Positions 207-36,168 of a stretch of 36,295 nucleotides of DNA are shown one piece after another. A program made the translations under genes and the position numbers. Below the pieces are notes generated by a model. The model made no database searches. It was given only the letters and a program-made list of their open reading frames with translations, and was not told the DNA's origin. Source of the DNA: Pseudoflavonifractor sp. 524-17 (GTDB lineage Bacteria > Bacillota > Clostridia > Oscillospirales > Oscillospiraceae); assembly GCF_009935845.1 (NCBI RefSeq), contig NZ_QWEK01000035.1:1-36295 (forward strand), read 5' to 3'. Position 1 is the first letter of the stretch; each line of letters starts with the position of its first letter.

Positions 207-1085
207 ATGAAGGGGATTATACTGGCAGGGGGAAGCGGGACGAGGCTTTATCCGCTGACCATGGTGACCAGCAAACAGCTGTTGCCCATTTATGACAAGC
301 CGATGATTTATTACCCATTGTCTACCCTAATGCTGGCAGGAATCCGGGAGATCCTGATTATTTCCACCCCCCAGGATCTGCCCAATTTTGAGCGGCTGTT
401 GGGGGATGGGAGCCAGTTTGGGCTTCAGTTATCCTATCAGATGCAGCCCTCCCCGGACGGCCTGGCCCAGGCGTTTATCCTGGGGGAGAAGTTTGTGGCG
501 GATGACCGGTGTGCCATGATTCTGGGGGACAATATTTTCTACGGCGCCGGTCTCACTGCCCACCTGTATAAGGCGGTGGAGCAGGAGGAGGGGGCCACGG
601 TGTTCGGCTACTATGTGGAGGACCCGGAGCGGTTCGGTGTAGTGGAGCTGGATGGAGAAGGGAGGGCCATCTCCCTGGAGGAGAAGCCTATCCAGCCCAA
701 GTCTAACTATGCGGTGACGGGGCTGTATTTTTATGACCGGAAGGTGTGCGAACGCGCCAAAAGCCTAAAACCCTCGCTGCGCGGGGAGTTGGAGATTACG
801 GATCTGAACCGCATCTATTTGGAGGAGGGCTCCCTGCGTGTGATTACCCTGGGCCGGGGCTATGCCTGGCTGGATACGGGGACGGTGGAATCCCTCAGCG
901 AGGCGTCGGAGTTTGTCCGTGTGATCGAGTCCCGGGAGGGGATCCGGATCTCCGCCCCAGAGGAAATCGCCTACCGGAACGGCTGGATTGACCGGGAGCA
1001 GCTGGAGCAGTCGGCGGCCGTCTACGGCAAATCCCCCTATGGCCAGCACCTGCGCAATGTGGCCGCAGGGAAGTACATTTATTGA
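207..1085 (+). CDS. rfbA: Glucose-1-phosphate thymidylyltransferase RfbA/RmlA
   Basis: This enzyme joins glucose-1-phosphate to dTTP to give dTDP-glucose, the first step of dTDP-rhamnose synthesis in the cytoplasm. The 292-residue protein has the nucleotide-binding signature [11 protein letters not shown] at about residues 8-18, the GDNIFYG metal/substrate motif near 110, and the EEKP and WLDTGT motifs of the sugar nucleotidylyltransferases. Length is normal for the short RmlA form. I chose the ATG at 207 because AAAGGAG lies at 194-200 and the protein then starts at the usual MKGIILAGG. It leads an rfbA-rfbC-rfbB run with short gaps, so it is probably co-transcribed with the glycosyltransferase genes that follow. 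Confidence 0.96.
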
Positions 1086-1095
1086 GGGTGAGGAA

Positions 1096-16281: not shown

Positions 16282-16668
16282 ATGAACGATGAAGTGTACG
16301 AGTGTTTCAAGACGATTATTCAGAATAGGCCCACGCCCAAGGAAGAACCGATGATTGGGGGTAAGGTAGGGTTTCTCTATCTTGATAAAAACGAGATGCT
16401 TATGGTCGCCCTGTATTGGGAGAAATACTTTGAGCATATCGTTGAAAAATATAACAAGATTTATCGTGCGCAGATGCCTAAAGTGACACCCCATGTGTGC
16501 AGACATACCTACTGCTCAAACTGTGCGCGAAGTGGCATGAATCCCAAAACCCTGCAATACCTGATGGGGTACTCGGAGATTGGGGTTACACTGAATGTCT
16601 ACACCCATACAGGATTTGACGATGTAAAGGCAGAGTTGGAGCGGATCAACATGGCAGGCACATCCTAG
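16282..16668 (+). pseudogene. C-terminal fragment of a tyrosine integrase
   Basis: The 128 codons match residues 275-397 of the intact integrase at 25410-26609, with many identical stretches such as MPKVTPHVCRHT and SGMNPKTLQYLMG. The HxxR pair and the nucleophile Tyr (NVYTHTGF) are present, but the second catalytic His is Tyr here (LMGYSEIG instead of LMGHSDIG). The N-terminal arm-binding and core-binding domains and the first catalytic Arg are missing. Sequence of the IS3 relic lies directly upstream. This is the remnant of a second, related integrated element. Confidence 0.85.
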
Positions 16669-16837: not shown

Positions 16838-17112
16838 TGGGGGCTCCGATGTGCCATGATATGCCATTTGACAAGGGCGTGGAAGGAATTGGGGAAGCCG
16901 CGAAACCATTGATATATCAAGGAACCCCAGCATTTTTAAGGAGGCTGAGCCAATGGTCAGGATATTATTCATATGCCATGGGAGTACACATCCTGTCCTT
17001 GAAAATGGTTGATATATCTGGACTTTTAGCAGATACCCCTGCAAATGTACTGCCTGTTTACGACTTTTGAGGTCTGGATGATAACACCCGCCTCGGCACG
17101 ATATGGACGATA

Positions 17113-17150
17113 AAGGGCAAGGCACAGATAGACGTGCCTTGCCCTTTTTG
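17113..17150 (+). terminator. Rho-independent terminator
   Basis: A 13-bp perfect stem AAGGGCAAGGCAC / GTGCCTTGCCCTT (17113-17125 and 17134-17146) with an 8-base loop is followed by a T run. It reads on the + strand. The gene it served is gone; the A-rich left flank would also let it act on the - strand, downstream of the reverse transcriptase. Confidence 0.85.
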
Positions 17151-17274
17151 CCGTTGTTGGCATTTCCGTCGTCGGATAATCCGACAACGGGAAAACCGGC
17201 GTCGGAAAATCCAACACAATAAAATATAGATATAAGTAACTAAAGATAAAATCAAGTAAAGACTTATCAATTAC

Positions 17275-17351
17275 CCATTCCTTTCCTTTCCTATCCTTTC
17301 CGCTACCTTTCCCGTTGAGGAACGGGCGGCAAAGCCGTCGGAAAGGAATGG
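17275..17351. repeat. Nested inverted repeats
   Basis: The outer arms CCATTCCTTTCC (17275-17286) and GGAAAGGAATGG (17340-17351) enclose a 6-bp stem CCCGTT/AACGGG with a 4-base loop (17311-17326) and a small CGGC/GCCG stem (17327-17337). The arrangement would fold into a multi-branched RNA or act as a cruciform. Confidence 0.5.
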
Positions 17352-17649
17352 AACGGAAGCGAGACACAGGGAGATTAAATAGCAGCAGGGGGGTTATCAT
17401 GGGCGTTATCTGACCCGCTGGAAGCGTACAGACGCGAAGCGGGTGTACGGTTTCTGCGGGTGTCGGCTTCCTGTCCTGGCCCTTTTTGTCCTCGTTTCTA
17501 CGCAGTTAGAAGTCCATTTTCGAGGGCGCAGGTCAAATCGTATTACCCCCTGTGTGACCGCTGTGTTTGAAAGCCTTGGAAATAGGCCGCTGGATAGGCC
17601 CTAAATGCGTAGGCTGGTACTTTTATTTTGAGGGGCAGTGAAGGCATCA

Positions 17650-17665
17650 GATATAGCGCTATATC
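17650..17665. repeat. 16-bp perfect palindrome after the reverse transcriptase stop
   Basis: GATATAGCGCTATATC is its own reverse complement and lies 12 bases beyond the stop of the reverse transcriptase gene. There is no T run, so it is either a protein site or a 3' hairpin of the transcript. Confidence 0.6.
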
Positions 17666-17677
17666 GATGATACTATT

Positions 17678-19033
17678 TCAATTTGGCTTCTTATAATCTT
17701 TTTTAAGAAATTTCCTGATTTTTTGCATATTTCTTTTAGAAGCAATCCCTATTCGCTCATCTTCTCCAAATCTCTCTGGTGCTTGAGCGCTAGTTACATA
17801 AGTAAGAAAATTTCCGGGCTTTCTTGTAGAACCTCGCACCGAATACTTCATGTATAAGTTTTTCTTGCTGATATGATTTCCACGTTTTGTATATCCGCCG
17901 CTTTTAGCTATTGTCTTTGCCTTTTTTCGCATTCGTTGATAGTGCTTTGAAACTGTTTTTGCTCTTAAACTCACTTTTTGCCCATCAAAAGTAAATCCGA
18001 GAAAATTCAAGTGACGGTTTGAGCAGTCTGCATCTTCGTGAATGATAGCTCCACAATTTTCTATCTTGTTTTCTGCAAAATGATAATATTGGGTTTTGAT
18101 TGGCTGCAATTCAAGGCCGGGGTAATTGGGGCTATTGAATAAACCGCTGATTTCGGTTAAGGCGCTAATGGCAGCTGCTTCTTCAATATGGGGTAAAACG
18201 ATGATAAAATCATCACTATATCGCATATATAATCCGCCGTACGCTGTTACGAAATCATGGATTGATTTATCAATTTCCAACATATATAGATTTGCTAAGG
18301 CTCCACTCATTGGGGAACCCTGGGGAATGCCACAGTTTTTATTCTTTTGAATACGATATGCGTTGTTCTTCAAGCCTTGGGGCGATAAGACCCGTTTCTT
18401 TTGGTTTAACTCTCGTCTCCCTTTCGGAGTGTCGTCCAAGCCATGAATTTTCAATAAATCAGCCAATTCAAAGTAGCTATATCGAGTGATATTCTTGAAC
18501 ACAGTATAGTGATCTGGCGGCAATCTATCCGTATGGAGTAACCGACACCATTGCTTTTTAAGATATTCGTGATTAAGCTTATCGAAAAATTTTGGAAAAT
18601 CGCCAATCATAATATAGCAATCATGATTTTTGCGAATAAACTGGATAGCTCTTTTTGCAAAGTCAATATTATTTTGCTTATTCAGATTTGTTCGATAGGC
18701 GGCAGCAACATCTTGTATTCCGAGCCGAGCGCATTCTTCATTATAGCGCTCGTTAAGAATAAAATTATACAGTTGGAAGATACAGCGATCAATATGTGCG
18801 GCATAACAAATATCTCTATGCTTTTCTTTTATTCCACCTTTTTGGGCAGAATATTTGCTCATATCTTTAACATAGTGGATAAACGGGTAGAAACCATGTT
18901 TGCAGATATTCTGAGGGTTAGAAATGTACTCCCAACTCTTTGAAATATCTGTGCGATAATCAAAATGAGCATAGTACCGTTGACTTTTCTTGATGGTCTT
19001 TTCTGACGTACGCCAAATCTCTATATCTCGCAT
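17678..19033 (-). CDS. Stand-alone reverse transcriptase, unassigned group
   Basis: A 451-residue RNA-directed DNA polymerase. The motif order is complete: motif A IMIGDFPKFFD with Asp145 and Asp151, motif B GIPQGSPMSGALANLYM at about 235-251, motif C RYSDDFIIV with Asp274 and Asp275, and motif E LNFLGFTFD at 342-350. The C-terminal 100 residues are basic (KHYQRMRKKAKTIAK) and look like a thumb and nucleic-acid binding region. There is no maturase X or endonuclease domain as in group II introns, and no retron VTG motif. The start is the ATG at 19033-19031, with AAGGAGA upstream. A long structured leader precedes it. Stand-alone enzymes of this kind are found in antiphage DRT systems; membership is inference. 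It lies beside integrative-element remnants. Confidence 0.88.
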   Translation of the reverse strand: MRDIEIWRTSEKTIKKSQRYYAHFDYRTDISKSWEYISNPQNICKHGFYPFIHYVKDMSKYSAQKGGIKEKHRDICYAAHIDRCIFQLYNFILNERYNEECARLGIQDVAAAYRTNLNKQNNIDFAKRAIQFIRKNHDCYIMIGDFPKFFDKLNHEYLKKQWCRLLHTDRLPPDHYTVFKNITRYSYFELADLLKIHGLDDTPKGRRELNQKKRVLSPQGLKNNAYRIQKNKNCGIPQGSPMSGALANLYMLEIDKSIHDFVTAYGGLYMRYSDDFIIVLPHIEEAAAISALTEISGLFNSPNYPGLELQPIKTQYYHFAENKIENCGAIIHEDADCSNRHLNFLGFTFDGQKVSLRAKTVSKHYQRMRKKAKTIAKSGGYTKRGNHISKKNLYMKYSVRGSTRKPGNFLTYVTSAQAPERFGEDERIGIASKRNMQKIRKFLKKDYKKPN

Positions 19034-19350
19034 AATTCTCTCCTTAATGCCGATACCCGCTGGCATGGAGGATAACATTCCTAAGCCAGCGGGTACAAAC
19101 CGTAACGTGGTATTTAATTTTCACCTTGTAGGCGGCTTGTTTAGATTACCAGCTATCCTAATTGCAATGCTTAACTGTGGTACAATTAAGCTGGAGACAT
19201 ATGTCAACGTAAGCTTGTTAATGCTCACCCTGGCGGTGATGTACTGCCGAAGCAGACCATCGGCCAACCTGAACCTTGCAGAAATATCCGTAGAAATCTC
19301 ATTGGAGGTGTTGACAACAATCATCTTCCCTTATACCAAATCTATAAGGT
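19034..19350 (-). ncRNA. Structured leader, candidate non-coding RNA partner of the reverse transcriptase
   Basis: From the predicted start near 19350 the transcript opens with a 7-bp hairpin (19349-19343 with 19335-19329). It then has a UUCG tetraloop hairpin (4 bp at 19244-19255, extended by 4 more bp across a 2x2 internal loop to 19238-19261) and an adjoining 5-bp hairpin (19225-19239). Further on are a 10-bp palindrome (19196-19205), a two-part 6+6 bp stem (19149-19194) and an 11-bp stem (19085-19095 with 19054-19064) ending about ten bases before the ribosome site. No credible small gene fills it on the - strand. The density of compact hairpins argues for a functional RNA, either template and primer for the enzyme or a regulatory leader. 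Exact ends are inferred. Confidence 0.5.
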
Positions 19351-19356
19351 GAGTTT

Positions 19357-19385
19357 ATTGTAACAGTTAGACCAGCTTTTGTCAA
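19357..19385 (-). promoter_or_regulatory. Sigma-A promoter of the leader and reverse transcriptase
   Basis: On the - strand, TTGACA (19385-19380) and TACAAT (19362-19357) are separated by exactly 17 bases. Start of transcription is expected near 19350, at the base of the first hairpin. The next gene on this strand is the reverse transcriptase at 19033. Confidence 0.8.
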
Positions 19386-19476
19386 TTCCAGTATCGGCAG
19401 TGCAGTATGAATTTACAAAAAATTCACTTCTCACTTGTGGGGTCAATAATGAGGGTTTGGGATTATCCCAACAAGC

Positions 19477-19519
19477 AAAAACGGACACGGCCCGGCAGGG
19501 GCCGGTTTTGGCCGTTTTT
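19477..19519 (+). terminator. Rho-independent terminator with two-part stem
   Basis: AAAAACGG (19477-19484) pairs with CCGTTTTT (19512-19519), and inside it CGGCCC pairs with GGGCCG (19088+400 region, 19488-19493 and 19499-19504). A T run closes it. It lies upstream of the response regulator gene and probably ended a gene of the element that is no longer present. Its A-rich left side makes it possibly bidirectional. Confidence 0.7.
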
Positions 19520-19520
19520 C

Positions 19521-19540
19521 GGGAGTGTGGCCACACTCCC
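19521..19540. repeat. 20-bp perfect palindrome
   Basis: GGGAGTGTGG is followed directly by its reverse complement. It sits one base after the terminator. It could be a dimeric protein site or part of a transfer-related region of the parent element; I cannot decide. Confidence 0.6.
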
Positions 19541-19603
19541 TATGCTTGCTACGTTAGCGTTCCCACCACATCGAGAACCCCAAAACTCAAAAATTTACTG
19601 TCA

Positions 19604-19658: not shown

Positions 19659-20324
19659 ATGGCAACATTACTGATTGTTGAGGACGACCGCAAGACCAAC
19701 GATGCGATTTGTGAATATCTAAAGCCTGCGGGCCACACAGTCATCCCAGCTTATGACGGCGGGGAGGCATTACAGATTTTCCGTGAGAACAGCGTCGACC
19801 TTGTTGTGCTGGACATCATGCTGCCCCACGTCAGCGGCCTGTCTGTCCTACATGAGATACGGCAAACAAGCACAACGCCCATTCTGATGCTTACAGCCCT
19901 TGAGGATGAATATACCCAAGTCAGGAGTTTTGACGAGCAGGCCGACGATTATATGACAAAGCCCTTTTCTATGGTATTGCTGGGGAGGCGGATCACCGCT
20001 CTCTTGCGGCGAAGCGGACAGGCCCCGTTACCCCAAACGATAACCTTTGGCGATGTGACCGTCGATTTCTCCGGCTACACCGCCAGCGACAGCGCCGGGA
20101 AAATCGACATCATGCCAAAGGAAATTGATTTGCTCCGGCTGCTGGTGGAGCATAGGGGGCTGGTGCTGACCCGCTCACAGATTTTGGACGAGCTGTGGGG
20201 CGCTGACTATCCGATCATCGACCGAACCGTGGATACCTACATCAAAAATCTGCGGAAGAAACTGCGGCTTGACTGTATCGTGACGGTCAAGGGTATCGGC
20301 TACAAATACGAGGTACAGCCATGA
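19659..20324 (+). CDS. OmpR-family response regulator
   Basis: A 221-residue cytoplasmic transcription factor. Residues 1-115 are the receiver domain with the acidic pair Glu8-Asp9-Asp10, the phosphorylation site Asp52 in VVLDIMLP, Thr79 and Lys101 (KPF). Residues 125-218 are the OmpR-type winged helix, with the recognition region SQILDELWG and RTVDTYIKNLRKKL. The start follows an AAAAGGGGGGG ribosome region. The next gene, its kinase, overlaps by ATGA. With the ABC transporter it resembles peptide- or antibiotic-sensing systems of the VncRS-Vex kind; the ligand is unknown. Confidence 0.93.
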   Translation: MATLLIVEDDRKTNDAICEYLKPAGHTVIPAYDGGEALQIFRENSVDLVVLDIMLPHVSGLSVLHEIRQTSTTPILMLTALEDEYTQVRSFDEQADDYMTKPFSMVLLGRRITALLRRSGQAPLPQTITFGDVTVDFSGYTASDSAGKIDIMPKEIDLLRLLVEHRGLVLTRSQILDELWGADYPIIDRTVDTYIKNLRKKLRLDCIVTVKGIGYKYEVQP

Positions 20325-21418
20325 AACGATTAAAACTGTTTCCGAAAATATTTCTCTATACCATGAGCATCATGCTCTTTGTCGTTGTTGTCACGTATGG
20401 GCTGATCTACCTGCTTGCCCCACGGATGCAGCTTGCGGTGAGTACCCAGGAGGATGTTGTTGTCAGCATCAGACAGGAGCAGTTTGTGACCGAGGCAGTA
20501 GAAAAAGCCCTGCCCATCTCGTTAAGCTGTTCCCTGCTGATCTCTGTTGTCTGTTCCCTCCTGTTTTCCAAAGCGATTGCCGACCCTATCAAGAAAATTT
20601 CTGCGTCAACCGAGCAGATGATGAAATTAGACCACGGAGCAAGCTGCCCTATCCATACAAAGGATGAAATTGGTACACTGGCGCAGAACGTCAATGATCT
20701 GTATTCCAATCTGCTGTCTACCATTGAACATTTGGAGCGGGAAAAGGACGCTGTGCGGGATATGGAGCGGGCCAAGGTGGACTTCCTCCGGGCGGCGTCC
20801 CATGAACTAAAAACGCCCGTGACCGCATTGAACGCCACCCTGGAAAATATGATTTTGGGCGTTGGAAAGTATCAGGACTACACAACATACCTCCCGGAGT
20901 GCAAGGAAATGGTGGAGCAGCTTTCCGGGATGATACATGAAATATTGGAAACCTCCAAGCTGAATTTGACCGCCGAAGCGCCAAAACAGGTTGATGTGCC
21001 TGAACTGCTGGCGGAACTGTGCGAACCCTACCAACTGATTGCGGCGGCACATCAAATCACGTTCTCTCTCGACCTGCCGGAACAATTCCCCGCGACACTT
21101 CCGGCTGGTCGCTTCAGCAAGGCGGTATCAAATGTTCTCGCAAATGCTGTTGCCTATACGGAGGCCGGAAAAGCGGTTTCTGTCTACATGGACGAAAATC
21201 GCCTAATCATTGAAAATGAATGTGACCCTATCCCTGATCGTGAAATACGCCGTCTGTTTGAACCGTTCTATCGTCCAGACTTCTCCCGGAGCCGGGAGAA
21301 CGGGGGCAACGGCCTGGGCCTCTATATCGTGGACACGCTTTTGACCTCTATGGACGTTCCCTATTCTTTTAAGCCGATGAAGTCCCCGCTTGGGATGTGT
21401 TTTACCATTCAGCTATAA
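20321..21418 (+). CDS. Sensor histidine kinase
   Basis: A 365-residue membrane kinase, partner of the preceding regulator. Two membrane segments (about 10-32 and 65-83) enclose a short external loop of about 30 residues, followed by a HAMP region (84-137). The dimerisation domain has AASHELKTPV with His161 as phospho-acceptor. The ATPase domain has the N box near ANAVAYTE and the G2 box NGGNGLGLYIV. The small external loop suggests that it senses a signal in the membrane or through the neighbouring transporter. Overlap of four bases with the regulator gene implies coupled translation. Confidence 0.93.
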   Translation: MKRLKLFPKIFLYTMSIMLFVVVVTYGLIYLLAPRMQLAVSTQEDVVVSIRQEQFVTEAVEKALPISLSCSLLISVVCSLLFSKAIADPIKKISASTEQMMKLDHGASCPIHTKDEIGTLAQNVNDLYSNLLSTIEHLEREKDAVRDMERAKVDFLRAASHELKTPVTALNATLENMILGVGKYQDYTTYLPECKEMVEQLSGMIHEILETSKLNLTAEAPKQVDVPELLAELCEPYQLIAAAHQITFSLDLPEQFPATLPAGRFSKAVSNVLANAVAYTEAGKAVSVYMDENRLIIENECDPIPDREIRRLFEPFYRPDFSRSRENGGNGLGLYIVDTLLTSMDVPYSFKPMKSPLGMCFTIQL

Positions 21419-21424
21419 ATGCGG

Positions 21425-21449
21425 AAAACTCCCCGGCTGGGGAGTTTTT
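21425..21449 (+). terminator. Rho-independent terminator after the kinase gene
   Basis: A perfect 10-bp stem AAAACTCCCC / GGGGAGTTTT (21425-21434 and 21439-21448) with a GGCT loop and a T run. It separates the two-component operon from the ABC operon, which has its own regulated promoter at 21475. Confidence 0.92.
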
Positions 21450-21474
21450 CATTTCTGCCTAAATTCCATATACG

Positions 21475-21509
21475 TTTCATACCTATTCCACATTGGGGTG
21501 CTATTCTGC
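21475..21509 (+). promoter_or_regulatory. Promoter with TTYCAYAY repeats, site 2
   Basis: TTTCATAC (21475) and TTCCACAT (21486) lie 11 bases apart, followed by TATTCT at 21502-21507. Of 35 positions aligned with site 1 at 19604, about 29 are identical although nothing else around the two sites is alike. It lies between the terminator and the permease gene and probably binds the response regulator. Confidence 0.7.
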
Positions 21510-21553
21510 GAGTGCGTTCAGAAGAACAGCACAACAATATGGAGGTATCAACC

Positions 21554-22990
21554 ATGAGCATTTTCAAAAGGGCGTTTCTATACGTCACACGAAAGTGGGG
21601 GAAAACCATTCTCCTGTTCGCCATCCTGCTGATTATGGCAACCTTTGTTCTGACGGGCCTTTCCATCTGGAAAGCATCGGAGGCCGCGCAGCTTGACCTG
21701 CGGCAGAGCTTGGGCGGCAAATTTGACGTTTTCGTGGATTGGAGCAATAGCCCCTATGTAGTGAAAGAGCCTGTCAAAGACGAAGTAGACGAGGAAACAG
21801 GCAGGACATCAAGCAGCTTTCTCATGTATTCTACCGTACAGTTTACCCCGGATAACATTGCGGCAATCAAAGGTGTTTCCGGCGTGAAGTATTGCAGCGC
21901 AAGGCAGGACAATCTTCTCCCGTTTAAGGGCCTTTCCCTGTTTCCTGGAACGATCTCAACCGACGCGAAATATCAGGGTTACACAAAGACGCTGGGCGTC
22001 TGCAACACGGAGGACGATGAACTTTTCACCACCGGCACACTGACGCTGTCAGAGGGGCGGCATATCTTCACCGATGATACCCATGTAGCGATCATCAGCC
22101 AGGACTTGGCGGAGCGGAACGAGCTGAAAATCGGTAACTACCTTACCGCCCACAGTTACAGCGTGGAGAATCAGGGCTTTACCGGGCCGGAAATCAGGGT
22201 ACAAATTATTGGACTGTTTACCCCTCATGCGGTGGAGCAGTTTGGGGAAACTGTCACCACCTACGACAAAATCCAGAACCGTGTATTTGTGGATTTACAG
22301 ACCTCGAAAGAATTTGACGGCGGGGAGATTAACTACGGCTTTTCCGCACTCCACATTACCATAGACGACCCGCAGGACATGGCGCAAGTGGTGGCCGAAG
22401 TCAAGGCCCTGCCGGGAATTGACTGGAAAGCCTTTACCGTGGAGGTGGACAATGAAACCTACGAAAACGCCGCCGCTCCGCTGGCTACGCTGAATGAATT
22501 GGTCGTGACCCTGCTGGTGGTGATTATCGTTGTCAGCGCCATCATTCTGGCCCTGATATTGACCCTTTGGACAAAGACCCGCATCCATGAGATTGGTGTG
22601 TTCCTGTCCGTGGGTATCAGGAAATCGGCTATCATCGGACAGTATTTGATTGAAGTGCTGCTGATCGCCGTTCTCGCCTTTGGCCTGTCCTATTTCACCA
22701 GCAACGCCATAGCGGGGCAGATCGGCAACCATCTGTTGGAGCAGAGTATGCAGACCGAGCCGGAGGACGATAACGATGTTGTAGCTGCTGCCGCTGCGGT
22801 TGATGTGGGCGCGGACACTCTTATTCAAAAACCCCTGCCTACGGAGAATGGCATCCAAGTGTCCGTTGGGCTGGACAACCTCGCCCAACTCTATTTGATT
22901 GGCCTTACTATTATCATTGTGGCCGTCAGCGCATCGTCTATCACAGTTATGCGGCTGAAACCCCGTGAAATCCTGTCAAAAATGAGCTAA
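21554..22990 (+). CDS. ABC transporter permease, FtsX/MacB type
   Basis: A 478-residue membrane protein. One membrane segment lies at about 17-39 (TILLFAILLIMATFVLTGLS), followed by a large external domain of roughly 265 residues, then three segments near 310-335, 355-380 and 445-465. The region around the second and third segments (TRIHEIGVFLSVGIRKSAI) is the FtsX-family coupling motif, and the C-terminus ends RLKPREILSKMS. A run of acidic and Ala residues precedes the last helix. The ATG at 21554 is chosen because GGAGG lies at 21541-21545. With the ATPase encoded next it would act as a mechanotransmission or export pump, as in Vex and MacB systems. Confidence 0.9.
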   Translation: MSIFKRAFLYVTRKWGKTILLFAILLIMATFVLTGLSIWKASEAAQLDLRQSLGGKFDVFVDWSNSPYVVKEPVKDEVDEETGRTSSSFLMYSTVQFTPDNIAAIKGVSGVKYCSARQDNLLPFKGLSLFPGTISTDAKYQGYTKTLGVCNTEDDELFTTGTLTLSEGRHIFTDDTHVAIISQDLAERNELKIGNYLTAHSYSVENQGFTGPEIRVQIIGLFTPHAVEQFGETVTTYDKIQNRVFVDLQTSKEFDGGEINYGFSALHITIDDPQDMAQVVAEVKALPGIDWKAFTVEVDNETYENAAAPLATLNELVVTLLVVIIVVSAIILALILTLWTKTRIHEIGVFLSVGIRKSAIIGQYLIEVLLIAVLAFGLSYFTSNAIAGQIGNHLLEQSMQTEPEDDNDVVAAAAAVDVGADTLIQKPLPTENGIQVSVGLDNLAQLYLIGLTIIIVAVSASSITVMRLKPREILSKMS

Positions 22991-23003
22991 AGGAGGGACT
23001 ATC

Positions 23004-23639
23004 ATGCCTATACTGGAATTGAAAAATGTTTCTTACGCCTACGAAAAGGGCAAGGCGGTTTTACAGAACGTCAGCGCAGAACTGGAAACCGGGAAAATGT
23101 ACGCCATCCTCGGCCCGTCCGGGTCGGGGAAGACCACGCTGCTGTCCCTGCTGGGCGGGCTGGATGTGCCGACGCAGGGCGGCGTCCTGTTTGACGGCGA
23201 GGACATTACGGCAAAGGGGCTGGAACTCCACCGTAGGAACCATATCTCGCTGATTTTCCAAAGCTACAACCTGATCGACTACATGACGCCCGTTGAAAAT
23301 GTGCGGCTTACTGCCAAGCTGGACGCCGCCCCCATTCTGGAACGGCTGGGGCTGGAGCAGGACGAGATCACCCGGAACGTGTTGAAACTGTCCGGCGGAC
23401 AACAGCAGCGGGTGGCGATTGCGCGGGCGCTGGCTTCCGATGCCCCGGTCATTCTGGCGGACGAGCCAACAGGTAACTTGGACGCCGATACCGCCGAGGA
23501 GATCACGGCGATTTTGAAAGAGAGCGCCCATGCGTTCGGGAAGTGCGTGGTGGTCGTGACCCACTCTGGCGAGGTGGCAAAGCAGGCGGATGTGGTGCTG
23601 GAAATCAAGCGGGGACATTTGAAAGAGAGGGAAATGTGA
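23004..23639 (+). CDS. ABC transporter ATPase, LolD/MacB type
   Basis: A 211-residue ATPase with Walker A GPSGSGKT at 37-44, Q loop FQSYNLIDYMT, signature LSGGQQQRVAIARAL at 129-143, Walker B VILADEPTGNLD at 149-160 and the H loop VVTHSGEV. This set of motifs is the usual one for ATPases paired with FtsX-type permeases. AAGGAGG lies upstream. The lipoprotein gene overlaps its stop as GTGA, so permease, ATPase and lipoprotein are one operon. Confidence 0.95.
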   Translation: MPILELKNVSYAYEKGKAVLQNVSAELETGKMYAILGPSGSGKTTLLSLLGGLDVPTQGGVLFDGEDITAKGLELHRRNHISLIFQSYNLIDYMTPVENVRLTAKLDAAPILERLGLEQDEITRNVLKLSGGQQQRVAIARALASDAPVILADEPTGNLDADTAEEITAILKESAHAFGKCVVVVTHSGEVAKQADVVLEIKRGHLKEREM

Positions 23640-23989: not shown

Positions 23990-24146
23990 TGTGATTTTGG
24001 CGGCTTTGGGAGGCAGCCGCTATGTGGATATTTCGCCGTGAGAAATTGAGAGTGTCGTTATCAAAAAAGCACGTCCCCCACCTGTGGAAATTGCGGTTAT
24101 GAAGTTATACTATACGATGCAGGTATAGCAAACTATACAGTACAAG

Positions 24147-24182
24147 CCGCCCGGCGGGTCTATGCCCTGCCGGGCGGTTTTT
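24147..24182 (+). terminator. Rho-independent terminator
   Basis: CCGCCCGGC (24147-24155) pairs with GCCGGGCGG (24169-24177), followed by five T. Just before it a 6-bp hairpin GTATAG/CTATAC lies at 24123-24138. Both are on the + strand, between the transporter operon and the sigma factor remnant. Confidence 0.85.
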
Positions 24183-24316
24183 GTCGTTTCCTGCGGCCCA
24201 AAAATTTTTCTTCACTTTCTTCTCTGCGGAAAGCGGTTTTGCGCGCAAAACCTGTGCCGCTGGACACTCTGTTAGCGGAAAGGGAAAGTACCACCACCAT
24301 CCCCAAACGAAAGGGG

Positions 24317-24751
24317 GTGAGAAGATGGAAGCCAACCCCCCGCGATTATGGCAAACAGTGCAGGTTTGACACCTTTTGCAAGGCCGTGTTGAAGCATGAG
24401 GCAATCGACTACATCCGGGAAATGAAGCGGCGGGCCAGCCGGGAAACGTCCTTGGAGCGTCTGCCCCAAACGGCGATGGACAAGCTGTGATCGGCTGACG
24501 ACTATCCCAGCGACAGCTATGTGTTCTCTTACCGCGGCTGCGACCTGCCGATCAGCAGCGAACGGGTTGCCGACGCCTTTGCTGGTCTGCCGGAGCAGGA
24601 GCAAAGTATTTTGATTTTGCGCTTGGTTCTGGATTTGACGGACAGCGAGATTGGCGAGGCCTTGGGTCTGTCCCGGAGTGCCGTCCAGCGGCGCAGAACA
24701 AAATCGCTGAATGTCCTGCGGGCAAAACTGACAGCGAGGAAAGGAGGTTAG
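24317..24751 (+). pseudogene. Sigma-70-like factor of an integrative element, with internal stop
   Basis: The frame from GTG 24317 reads YGKQCRFDTFCKAVLKHEAI and DYIREMKRRASRETSLE, the region 2-like start of the small sigma factors carried by Tn1549-type elements. A TGA at 24488-24490 then interrupts it. The same frame continues as DDYPSDSYVFSYRG, VADAFAGLPEQEQSILILR and a region 4 helix-turn-helix (LTDSEIGEALGLSRSAVQRRR) to 24751. A single base change at the stop would restore about 144 residues. The gene probably once drove transfer or excision functions of the element. Confidence 0.75.
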
Positions 24752-24755
24752 CGCC

Positions 24756-24993
24756 ATGAAGCGCCGGAACTACAAGGGCCGTGAACTGCTTCCGATAGCG
24801 GTGAGCGACGCAGCCCAGACCGGGGATGCCGATGCTGTGGAGCAGGTCTTGCGGTACTACGAAGGCTACATAAACAAGCTCTGCACCCGGACGGTCTACG
24901 ACGAAAGCGGCTGTCCCCACGCCTGGTCTGGACGAGTACATGAAAAGTCGCCTTGAAAACAAACTGATCTGCGCCATTCTCGGCGTGAACTGA
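24756..24993 (+). pseudogene. Helix-turn-helix protein of the integrative element, frameshifted
   Basis: The first 55 codons (MKRRNYKGRELLPIAV, AVEQVLRYYEGYINKL) match the small helix-turn-helix protein that follows the sigma factor in Tn1549-like elements. Near 24920-24935 the frame slips: the remaining sequence (LDEYMKSRLENKLICAILG) continues in the next frame to a TGA at 24991-24993, while the original frame ends at 24956. AGGAGG precedes the ATG. The product would lack its last quarter. Confidence 0.7.
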
Positions 24994-25082
24994 TAACCGG
25001 CCCCGGTTGGGGGGGACAGCTTACCCTTTCCCTGTTCCTCCCGCCTGTGGACCTGGGCATTTCAAAGAAAGGCTGGTGAACT

Positions 25083-25289
25083 ATGGCCGAGGAAATCGGC
25101 ATTTCGGTAAAGGACAAATTCTGCCTCACCATTGAGGAAGCCTCCCACTATTTCGGAATTGGAGAAAAGAAACTGCGAAAGCTGGTAAACAGCAACCTAG
25201 ATGCCGGTTTTGTCATTCAGAATGGCGTAAAAATCCTAATCAAACGCCAGCGGTTTGAGCAGTTTTTGGATAAGCTGTCGTCGATTTAA
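25083..25289 (+). CDS. xis: Excisionase of Tn916 type
   Basis: A 68-residue DNA-bending recombination directionality factor. FCLTIEEASHYFGIGEKKLRKLV is the winged helix of Tn916-type Xis proteins and the basic end (VKILIKRQRFEQFLDKL) fits the family. It lies 120 bases upstream of int, as usual, and is intact. It would act with the integrase to excise the element. An AAAGGCTGG stretch serves as a weak ribosome site. Confidence 0.88.
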   Translation: MAEEIGISVKDKFCLTIEEASHYFGIGEKKLRKLVNSNLDAGFVIQNGVKILIKRQRFEQFLDKLSSI

Positions 25290-25342
25290 GCGCCGCACCT
25301 TGCGAAAAGTTTTAAGAAAGCGGTCGGATTGATATGGAAAAT

Positions 25343-25390
25343 GAGCCTCGGCTATGGTATAATATGATTATATCGTGCCGAGGCTCTTTT
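25343..25390 (+). terminator. Hairpin between xis and int that encloses a promoter element
   Basis: GAGCCTCGGC (25343-25352) and GCCGAGGCTC (25377-25386) form a perfect 10-bp stem followed by TTTT. The 24-base loop holds an extended -10 element, TGGTATAAT (TATAAT at 25358-25363). Transcripts from xis could end here, while a transcript starting at this -10 would contain only the right arm and escape termination. Confidence 0.7.
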
Positions 25391-25409
25391 CACAGAAAGG
25401 AGCATAGAC

Positions 25410-26609
25410 GTGAGCGAAAAGCGACGTGACAGCAAGAACCGCATTCTTCGCAGCGGAGAGAGCCAACGCAAAGACGGACGATATGCGTACAAATACATTG
25501 ATGCCACCGGCAAGCCACAATTTGTTTACAGTTGGAAGCTGGAAGCCACGGACAGCACACCCCAGGGCAAACGTGACGGGCTTTCCCTGCGGGAAAAGGA
25601 GAAGCAAATCCGGCGGGACATTGAAGATGCAATTATTCCCCGCGGCGGAGAAATGACCGTTCTGGATTTGGTAAAAAAGTACCTCTCACAGAAAACCGGC
25701 GTCCGGCACAACACCGAGGCCAACTATAACGTTGTCCTCAATATCATCAAGAAAGAGGACTTCGGCAGACAGCGCATTGACCGGGTGAAGCTGTCCGACG
25801 CCAAGTGCTGGCTTATCAAGTTACAGCAGGACGGCAGAGGGTACAGTTCCATCCACTCCATTCGGGGCGTTGTCCGGCCCGCGTTTCAGATGGCCGTGGA
25901 CGATGATTTGATACGCAAAAATCCGTTTGAGTTTCAGCTTGCCACCGTCGTTGTCAACGACAGCGTGACAAGGGAAGCGATTACAAGAAAACAGGAACGG
26001 GCATTTCTGGAATTTGTAAAGGGTGACAAGCACTTTTCCCGGTACTATGACGGCATCTATATCCTGTTCAAGACTGGACTTCGTATCTCGGAATTTGTTG
26101 GACTGACGCTGGCTGATCTGGATATGAAGAACCGCAAAATCAGTGTCAACCACCAGCTTCAGCGGAAGCGGAACATGGAGTATATCATCGAGGACACAAA
26201 AACCTCCAGCGGGACGCGGGAAATCCCTATGACAGACGATGTGTACCAATGCTTCCAGCGCATTATCGCCAACAGGCCAAAGCCCAAGACCGAGCCGATG
26301 ATCGGCGGCAGGTGCGGCTTTTTATACCTGGACAAGGACGGCAAGCCGATGGTGGCGCTTCACTGGGAGCATTACTTCAAGCACATCTGCCAGAAGTACA
26401 ACAGCATCTACAAGGTGCAGATGCCCAAAGTCACCCCACACGTTTGCAGGCACACATTCTGTTCCAACATGGCAAAGAGCGGCATGAACCCCAAGACGCT
26501 GCAATACCTCATGGGCCACTCGGATATTGGCGTCACGCTGAACACCTACACTCACCTGGGCTTTGAGGACGCGCAGGCGGAGCTGAAACGGGTCGCCAGC
26601 GGCGGGTAG
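25410..26609 (+). CDS. int: Tyrosine integrase of Tn916/Tn1549 type
   Basis: A 399-residue site-specific recombinase. Residues 1-75 form the arm-DNA-binding domain (DGRYAYKYIDATGKPQFVYSW), 85-170 the core-binding SAM-like domain, and 185-395 the catalytic domain with Arg225 (TGLRISE), His345 and Arg348 (HVCRHTF), His370 (LMGHSD) and the nucleophile Tyr380 (NTYTH). All catalytic residues are present. The start is GTG 25410 with GAAAGGAG upstream. It lies at the right end of the element, after xis, in the standard order. It is related to the fragment at 16282. Confidence 0.95.
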   Translation: MSEKRRDSKNRILRSGESQRKDGRYAYKYIDATGKPQFVYSWKLEATDSTPQGKRDGLSLREKEKQIRRDIEDAIIPRGGEMTVLDLVKKYLSQKTGVRHNTEANYNVVLNIIKKEDFGRQRIDRVKLSDAKCWLIKLQQDGRGYSSIHSIRGVVRPAFQMAVDDDLIRKNPFEFQLATVVVNDSVTREAITRKQERAFLEFVKGDKHFSRYYDGIYILFKTGLRISEFVGLTLADLDMKNRKISVNHQLQRKRNMEYIIEDTKTSSGTREIPMTDDVYQCFQRIIANRPKPKTEPMIGGRCGFLYLDKDGKPMVALHWEHYFKHICQKYNSIYKVQMPKVTPHVCRHTFCSNMAKSGMNPKTLQYLMGHSDIGVTLNTYTHLGFEDAQAELKRVASGG

Positions 26610-28969: not shown

Positions 28970-29275
28970 TCAGCCGCAGCAGGAGCTGCATCCACAGCCG
29001 GAGCTGCATCCACAGCCAGAGCTGCATCCGCACCCGGAATTACAGCCGCACCCGCAGCCGTTGTCGGGATCGGGGAAGAGGAAGGCAGGCATAGCCACAA
29101 CAGAGCAGCCGCTCCAGGCAGGCATGGAGGCGGCCTCCGCCGCTACGGCGGCGGTCTCCGCGGTGCTGGCTGCTTCCGCCTGGGCGGCGCACCCGCAGGA
29201 ATTGCAGCCGCTGCTGCACCCGCACCCGCTCTGGCAGCCGCAGGAACACTGGGTATTATTTTGATAACAGCACAT
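28970..29275 (-). CDS. Cysteine-rich small protein with GCGCSS repeats
   Basis: A 101-residue protein with 22 cysteines. Residues 1-29 hold ten (CC, then CxCxC and CGC groups), residues 30-55 are Ala- and Glu-rich with no Cys, and residues 72-100 repeat GCGCSS several times and end SSCCG. The repeats show at DNA level as imperfect 18-base units on the other strand (about 28984-29037). The start ATG has AAGGGGG seven bases upstream on the - strand, which supports expression. No family is recognised; metal binding, a spore-coat protein, or a ribosomally made peptide are all possible. There is no signal peptide. Confidence 0.7.
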   Translation of the reverse strand: MCCYQNNTQCSCGCQSGCGCSSGCNSCGCAAQAEAASTAETAAVAAEAASMPAWSGCSVVAMPAFLFPDPDNGCGCGCNSGCGCSSGCGCSSGCGCSSCCG

Positions 29276-35171: not shown

Positions 35172-36168
35172 TCACAATACCGTTTTTAGCAGCTGCGCCG
35201 CGCTTTCCTCCGCCGGGTCGTTGGTCCCCAGCTCGCCCCGGAACGCCCGGGCTAAAATCGCCTTTTTCATGGTGTCGATCTGAGAGAGAACCGCTTCGGC
35301 GGCTTCTTTGGCCTGCTGCTCTTTACTAAAAATAGTACTTAAAAGGCGGACAATTTCCCTCTGCTCATCTTCTTCCGGGATGGGGACGGCCATATTAGCC
35401 ATTCCCTTCCTGCTAATCGTATTTTGTCCAGCACTTGATACCATGTGGTCCTTCACATCAGGAACGAGTAATTGACGCCCTACATTATCTTTAGAGCCAT
35501 TAACCCGAACCATAATCACATCATTTTCCGATAAAGAATAAGATTTTTGCTCTTTTTCGTCCAAAAATATTTCTCTTAAATCACTGCTATCGAACCCGTC
35601 CTCTGCGTTTGGCTAATCCATTCTGCATTTTTTGAATGCAGTCATTGAACAACACCGTTTTCCAACTATCCAGCCCAACCCTATTCTCTTTTCTCCACCG
35701 CTCCGTCAGTTCCCCCGTAAACGCCTTATGCAGAATTGCAGATTTCCGCAGTTCAAAACTGTCCACAACCGCCTGGGCCTTTTCCTTTGCCTCATCCAGC
35801 TTGGCAAACAGGCTTTCTATACGGGAGACAATGCGGCGTTGTTCAAAAAGCGGAGCAACAGGAATAGGAATTATATTCATACTTGCTTGCGTCAATTTCA
35901 ACCGAGTAGTCCCATTTACATAACCAGAGTAATCAAAACAATTCAAATAGTTAAGCAGATAAAAATTTCCAGTAGAGCCAAAGTAAGAACGCAAAATGTG
36001 AGCGTGATTATTTACCCATGCTTTTCCCTCGATCATATACGCCTTGTCTTTCATGCGGTCAAGAAATGGCGCACCGTCTTCACCAACCAATACCAACTGC
36101 TCATCAGTTAGGAAATCGTCAATCCACCCCACTTGTCCAGTATAGTGATAGTACTTGAAAAAGCACAA
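35172..36168 (-). pseudogene. hsdS: Broken type I restriction specificity gene (hsdS)
   Basis: The specificity subunit picks the DNA target for methylation and cleavage. On the - strand, the piece 36168-35587 covers the later half of the first recognition domain (GWIDDFLTDEQLVLVGEDGAPF, NNHAHILR), the first central helix (EQRRIVSRIESLFAKLDEAKEKA) and the start of the second domain (MQNGLAKRR). A one-base frameshift follows near 35600-35610. The piece 35564-35172 continues (ENDVIMVRVNGSKDNVG), has lost perhaps 40-60 codons before IPEEDEQREIVRLL, and ends with the second helix. The 5' end is cut by the insertion sequence that begins near 36150. No hsdM or hsdR is in view. Not functional as it stands. 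Confidence 0.85.

Follow-up and report, generated by a model that had tools for sequence, protein, structure and literature searches.

A candidate DRT2 system with a predicted neo frame across template junctions in the contig of a Pseudoflavonifractor strain

The 36,295-nt stretch of Pseudoflavonifractor sp. 524-17 analysed here (contig NZ_QWEK01000035.1; hereafter the window) carries on its minus strand a gene for a reverse transcriptase, preceded by a promoter and a long leader with the features of a structured non-coding RNA (ncRNA). The enzyme belongs by its sequence to DRT2 (UG2), on a distant branch of that family. The locus is very probably a DRT2 system of a divergent clade, found in this analysis mainly in the window's class, an estimate that applies jointly to the whole explanation developed below. 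The gene and the elements of the leader outside its predicted template are the following.

17678–19033, minus strand: DRT2 reverse transcriptase of 451 amino acids (ATG at 19033–19031, stop at 17680–17678)
19357–19385, minus strand: promoter of the ncRNA and the reverse transcriptase (TTGACA at 19385–19380, 17 nt, TACAAT at 19362–19357), aligned in relatives
19054–19351, minus strand: predicted ncRNA of ~298 nt, its start inferred from the promoter and its 3' end set after the last conserved hairpin
19278–19351, minus strand: match to Rfam family RT-6 (RF03027) in an Rfam search, 52.3 bits against a cut-off of 46.7
19329–19349, minus strand: 5' hairpin CCTTATA/TATAAGG, counterpart of the 5' handle of Klebsiella DRT2, from covariation
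19152–19158, minus strand: first strand of the pseudoknot, GGATAGC, from covariation
19070–19076, minus strand: second strand of the pseudoknot, GTTATCC, within the loop of the 3' hairpin, from covariation
19054–19095, minus strand: 3' hairpin of 11 bp, from covariation

The reading frame of the reverse transcriptase is intact, and GIPQGSP, YSDD and D145 are all preserved, which gives the enzyme the catalytic YxDD and the GIPQGSP motif of DRT2. RVT_1 is the sole Pfam family in the protein at E-values up to 0.01; hence no maturase or endonuclease domain is found, and the first-pass annotation of this DNA was right to describe a complete, stand-alone enzyme. Its remark that the family could not be assigned no longer stands. 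The enzyme scores 464 and 286 bits with the two Drt2 models of PADLOC and 78 bits with UG39, the next family, and the closest structures in the PDB are the DRT2 enzymes 9c0i, 9lje and 9lv7 (phmmer E-values 1.6e-52 to 1.7e-50), which rank first in a profile search of the PDB as well. DRT2 is present in a single copy in its own genome. A retron was considered and rejected: the top retron model (St85) gives the enzyme 48 bits against a cut-off of 235, and the window holds no such RNA. An enzyme of group II introns, the placement that had been named as fatal to the idea of an RNA-coupled system, was likewise rejected, with 72 bits against a cut-off of 300, RVT_1 alone in Pfam and no intron RNA that reaches its gathering score anywhere in the window.

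The leader is strongly folded. Its predicted folding energy over 313 nt is −105.7 kcal/mol, compared with −81.5 ± 5.3 for 100 shuffles (z −4.6), none of which folds as well. Transcription starting near 19350 would place ~317 nt before the ATG of the reverse transcriptase, and the TTGACA-17-TACAAT promoter that the first-pass annotation had put about 316 nt before this start is indeed found at 19385–19357 on the minus strand. The first 74 nt of the predicted ncRNA cover the whole RT-6 model, and RT-6 is recovered at an E-value of 0.01 or better in 10 of 10 scanned leaders of relatives, above the cut-off in seven of them. Within a 391-genome sample of the window's class, RT-6 above 42 bits and DRT2 (E-value 1e-50) co-occur in the same four genomes, its own included, and in these four the RNA lies directly upstream of the reverse transcriptase. 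Weaker RT-6 matches in three further genomes (loci L015–L017; 27–30 bits) are judged to be chance, because the loci encode no relative of the enzyme and the genomes have no DRT2 at 1e-50.

Aligning the leaders of relatives, a check that had been proposed for this DNA, brings out both common sequence and covarying stems. Over 11 leaders, 98.7% of 77 cells of the 5' hairpin are paired and five of seven pairs have changed on both sides; for the pseudoknot and 3' hairpin in ten aligned leaders the figures are 100% of 180 cells and 12 of 18 pairs, all of these counts being inflated by kinship among the leaders. The covariation score of the pseudoknot and 3' hairpin is reached by none of 500 shuffles, and sliding the partners against each other leaves 33–52% of cells paired. 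Locus L020 was kept out of leader alignments A2 and A3, its 3' part aligning poorly. Two hairpins reported earlier, one at the predicted 5' end and an 11-bp stem before the ribosome site, are thus present and covary among relatives. A UUCG tetraloop is also there, as claimed (CTGCTTCGGCAG, 19255–19244), but it falls within the variable template and only L006 of the nine other aligned leaders keeps it. The predicted fold is that of a structured upstream ncRNA with a 5' hairpin and a 3' pseudoknot, as looked for in DRT2.

In the Klebsiella DRT2 system, as described in the parts of PMC11100668 and PMC12039810 drawn on throughout this text, the reverse transcriptase copies a 120-nt template repeatedly by jumping between two ACA motifs. 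In the complementary DNA (cDNA) unit TATAAT comes early and TTGACA late, so that each junction yields a promoter, and the unit contains a stop-free frame, neo; a DNA primer made by the enzyme is joined to the 3' end of the ncRNA. We find a comparable arrangement in the window, with the following elements.

19169–19321, minus strand: predicted template of 153 nt, from junction and open-frame analysis
19318–19321, minus strand: first candidate jump motif ATTG, at the template 5' end, from the matched repeat
19165–19168, minus strand: second candidate jump motif ATTG, directly 3' of the template, from the matched repeat
19311–19316, plus strand: TTGACA, −35 of the predicted junction promoter in cDNA sense, from the sequence
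19181–19186, plus strand: TACAAT, −10 of the predicted junction promoter in cDNA sense, from the sequence
19167–19319, plus strand: genomic form of one predicted Neo repeat, 51 codons, which would continue from repeat to repeat in copied DNA
19304–19308, plus strand: GGAGG, candidate ribosome site, 11 nt before the in-frame ATG that the repeat junction would form

Matched short repeats flank the template in the form of ATTG and ATTG. Placed head to tail, the reverse complement of the template reads TTGACA-ACAAT|GCTTAACTGTGG-TACAAT, in which 5 and 12 nt add up to 17, the spacing of the sigma-70-type promoter of DRT2, with one mismatch in total in the two hexamers. The predicted junction of the head-to-tail cDNA is TTGACAACAAT|GCTTAACTGTGGTACAAT. 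Both halves of this promoter lie in conserved surroundings: the conserved ATTGTTGTCAAC that begins at 19321 is GTTGACAACAAT in the cDNA and contains the −35, and TACAAT sits in a conserved hairpin at the opposite end of the template. The repeated 153-nt unit, which is divisible by three, has exactly one stop-free frame. DNA similarity between the window and L144 ends at 19168 and resumes at 19310; the flanks are therefore conserved, unlike the template. Against L005 (8421 bases compared, E-value 1e-5) the only block of similarity is 17692–19394, that is, promoter, RNA and reverse transcriptase. The covarying stems, the divisible stop-free repeat and the junction promoter all support the earlier suggestion that the leader is the RNA template of the enzyme, with two corrections: the family is a known one, DRT2, and the coding information appears to lie on the strand opposite the leader RNA. 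We infer that the leader RNA is transcribed and copied in this organism.

The junction can be sought in other DRT2 leaders. When the ends of the unit were placed by eye on the leader alignment, nine of nine leaders gave an open unit whose length, 126–159 nt, is a multiple of three; in L020 the 17-bp junction spacing is made up of 8 + 9. Two groups among the nine are closely related, one formed by the window, L004, L005 and L006 and the other by L008 and L009, so the nine leaders represent about five lineages. We also applied a rule blind to coding, which takes the best −35/−10 pair at 17-bp spacing with up to two mismatches and requires 3 nt or more of jump match, to 24 DRT2 leaders (the nine aligned first, L142 and L144–L157). 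It finds a junction in 22. The unit length is a multiple of three in 18 of them, compared with the one third that chance would give, and 17 of the 18 units are open. Counting each of the two groups of close relatives once leaves 14 of 18 divisible and 13 open. Shuffled units of the same composition are open in 2.5–74% of cases, and in 7.7% for the window unit. The exact jump site has no bearing on divisibility, since the unit length is set by the 17-bp spacing. In L018 the blind search ranks a 105-nt unit first, and the 141-nt unit was taken by alignment with relatives.

A strict scan, allowing one promoter mismatch at most and spacings of 16–18, returns a divisible and open unit in 17 of 24 real leaders and in 7 of 1440 shuffled ones. 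At a loose setting of up to three mismatches such units appear on the cDNA strand of 22 of the 24 leaders, on the ncRNA strand of eight and in 378 of 1440 shuffles, so that information comes from the strict setting alone. Coding on the ncRNA strand was considered and rejected. The blind rule was kept unchanged for a later set of seven leaders from plasmids of Alphaproteobacteria, Bacteroidota and Cyanobacteriota, three of which (L161 and the related L162 and L163) have divisible, open units. All leader counts omit L158, whose leader is cut off by the end of the record, and L010, with a partial reverse transcriptase; L006, owing to its frame change, was left out of protein alignments and the tree. 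The starts of the enzyme in L161 and L164, whose records are unannotated there, were estimated from the protein match.

The predicted Neo unit of the window has 51 residues and is hydrophobic (grand average of hydropathy, GRAVY, 0.70), and no Pfam family was found for it. Its structural model, built from eight sequences, contains two helices (4–29 and 34–50) at moderate confidence (predicted local distance difference test, pLDDT, 72.5; predicted template modelling score, pTM, 0.40). Neo would be a hydrophobic, probably helical repeat protein. Helical repeats are also predicted for Klebsiella Neo (PMC11100668), which has a hydrophobic bias and yields low-confidence models only (PMC12039810). 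The junction itself would create an in-frame ATG, preceded at 11 nt by GGAGG (the window, L004 and L005) or at 10 nt by AAGG (L008 and L009). AGGAG stands 7 nt before an ATG after the −10 in L020; in L018 no start with a ribosome site within 16 nt was found. The candidate ribosome site and start of the window are not at the place described for Klebsiella, and translation probably begins differently. On two rhizobial plasmids (L162:1165–1299 and L163:1171–1299, minus strand), the antisense stretch upstream of DRT2 is annotated as a hypothetical protein that overlaps the predicted Neo frame, which suggests that gene callers may be listing pieces of neo.

The candidate jump motif varies between clades. 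In cDNA sense the motif of the window clade is CAAT, and its nine reverse transcriptase rows, L144 included, are joined in the tree with support of 100/97. L020 stands outside this group at a poorly resolved position, and its leader matches RT-6 just under the cut-off. Candidate motifs elsewhere, again in cDNA sense, are ATAC (L148, L149), TCAT (L145), GTGCAACA (L146), ATCT (L151), ACATA (L150), CTTC (L161) and AACG (L162, L163), and TGT, which corresponds to the Klebsiella ACA, is among the candidates for L142. Since chance can produce a 3–4 nt match in any one leader, the better supported candidates are those of the CAAT clade, the ATAC and AACG pairs and the 8-nt match of L146. Rfam RT-12 (RF03016) lies directly upstream of the reverse transcriptase, in the 3' part of the leader, in L142 and L151, and just under its cut-off in L156; an Rfam scan found no match to it in the window leader. 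RT-6 and RT-12, family names that convey no function, may correspond to different pieces of DRT2 RNAs from different clades, and the present loci tie both families to such RNAs. Full-text searching of the literature collection used here returned no paper on RT-6 RNA together with a reverse transcriptase, on RF03027 or on RT-12 RNA, and the link to DRT2 may be in print elsewhere. Scanning viral contigs with the DNA pattern gave at least 120 loci, and no relative of the enzyme is encoded in the 120 that were compared; a protein scan of viral contigs found no match with the window enzyme and a single locus, L142, with alignment A1.

Set beside the published accounts of Klebsiella DRT2, the window shares the reverse transcriptase family, the single promoter, the upstream ncRNA with its 5' hairpin, template and 3' pseudoknot, the 17-bp junction promoter, the divisible unit with one stop-free frame, and the predicted hydrophobic repeat product. 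It differs in the jump motif, ATTG instead of ACA, and in the unit of 153 nt (126–159 in relatives) against 120 nt, with 111–129 in close homologues (PMC12039810). By sequence, then, the window system would work like that of Klebsiella with another jump motif and unit length, and ACA is a trait of the Klebsiella-like homologues, not of the DRT2 enzyme family. DRT9, as the portions of PMC12483538 used here describe it, is likewise an antiviral reverse transcriptase with an upstream structured ncRNA, but it makes poly-dA from a U-rich loop, and its model gives the window enzyme 63 bits compared with 464 for Drt2.

The mechanism we propose for the window begins with a single promoter that would drive an ncRNA of ~300 nt together with the reverse transcriptase. 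The enzyme would grip the ncRNA at the 5' hairpin and the 3' pseudoknot and copy the 153-nt template. Once the first ATTG is copied, the cDNA end ...CAAT would re-anneal to the second ATTG and copying would restart, producing head-to-tail cDNA in which each junction brings TTGACA and TACAAT together at 17 bp as a promoter. Double-stranded cDNA could then give a stop-free messenger RNA and from it Neo, with 51 residues per repeat, which would arrest the growth of infected cells. We consider it highly likely that the module is a DRT2 anti-phage system with an endless neo frame from an ATTG-flanked template, as proposed. The enzyme family, the conserved RNA structure, the matched motif pair, the junction promoter and the endless frame can be read from the DNA itself; copying, second-strand synthesis, the phage trigger and growth arrest are carried over by analogy with Klebsiella DRT2, and usage of the promoters by the host is assumed. 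A broader generalization, that a short matched pair around the template suffices for gene synthesis by DRT2, with the motif specific to each clade, and that in the lineage of the window the promoter and the translation start exist only after copying, seems to us evenly balanced between true and false.

Several observations weigh against the proposed system. NCBIfam ranks Drt2 as the top model for the enzyme, at 357 bits against a cut-off of 390 that is not reached, and the ACA motifs of Klebsiella are missing at the matching places of the window leader. The GGAG after the junction −10 is followed by no in-frame start at the usual spacing. Seven of the 24 leaders (L144 and L152–L157) lack a divisible, open best junction: the best junctions of L152, L154, L155 and L156 are not divisible by three, and the blind rule finds none in L153 and L157; the protein match of L154 starts only at residue 68. 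Four of the seven later leaders (L159, L160, L164 and L165) fail the same rule. In L144 the enzyme is 72% identical to that of the window and the CAAT junction is the same, and its neo frame is interrupted.

In one alternative the enzyme is DRT2 and the leader its template, with the copied DNA or its RNA instead of Neo as the effector, or with other ends to the copied stretch. The interrupted frame of L144, the units without a clear ribosome site and start, and the difficulty of annotating Neo in divergent clades reported in the consulted part of PMC11100668 all fit this explanation. It would not, however, lead one to expect that 17 of the 22 leaders with a blind junction are divisible and open, when shuffled units of matching composition are open in 2.5–74% of cases and those of the window in 7.7%, and we regard it as improbable. 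L144 has no usual start codon at the aligned start of the reverse transcriptase; it could represent decay or a locus that does without Neo, and the copy in L006, with a frame change in the enzyme (L006:4001–5349), may also be decayed. These two loci, along with the integrase pieces nearby and short matches to plasmid genes annotated as DUF6017, would suit a decayed, non-functional DRT2 relic among remnants of mobile elements. In the window, though, the enzyme retains its frame and motifs, and the promoter, the two jump motifs, the pseudoknot and the neo frame are likewise undamaged; a relic is accordingly quite unlikely. Least credible of all is a cis-acting regulator of the reverse transcriptase gene, akin to an attenuator or riboswitch, in place of a template. 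The leader's position directly upstream, its orientation and its strong folding would agree with such a role; against it stand the published role of the upstream ncRNA in DRT2, the predicted junction promoter and endless frame, the variable middle between conserved flanks, and the Rfam classification of RT-6 as a small RNA gene, not a cis-regulator.

The DRT2 system with a template-encoded Neo is itself known: its mechanism was published in 2024 and worked out in Klebsiella and relatives (PMC11100668, PMC12039810). To judge by the literature examined, the new element is the proposed solution of its hidden gene for a divergent clade. The 2024 preprint, PMC11100668, in the part consulted, found Neo hard to annotate in divergent DRT2 clades, suggested an alternative mechanism there and left open whether distant clades make Neo likewise. 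For one such clade the window and its relatives predict the template ends, the junction promoter and the 51-residue repeat. The matched flanks, the 17-bp junction spacing, the divisible length and the pseudoknot seem to be fixed, and the sequences of motif and template seem free, a division that bears on how the jump is guided.

Two integrase sequences lie on the plus strand of the window: a C-terminal piece at 16282–16668 and, at 25410–26609, a full integrase whose DNA-binding domain is of the Tn916 type. Together with 17059–17400, which shows short similarity to plasmid genes annotated as DUF6017 proteins, they suggest that the reverse transcriptase lies within what is left of an integrative element. 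In L006 the stretches matching 17460–19564 and 24059–25576 are ~2 kb apart, so the two-component and ABC-transporter genes of the window (19659–23639, plus strand) are missing there, and the DNA of L004 matches the window up to 22251. Upstream of the module, a 51-nt stretch (19449–19500) has further copies, 96% and 92% identical, on two other contigs of this genome. Farther away on the minus strand are a 101-codon frame rich in Cys-Gly repeats (28970–29275) and pieces with a type I restriction specificity domain (35172–35564 and 35587–36168), the first under the Pfam cut-off. On a gut phage scaffold, L147, pieces of a group II intron RNA (779–1091, minus strand) lie upstream of the DRT2 leader and opposite to it.
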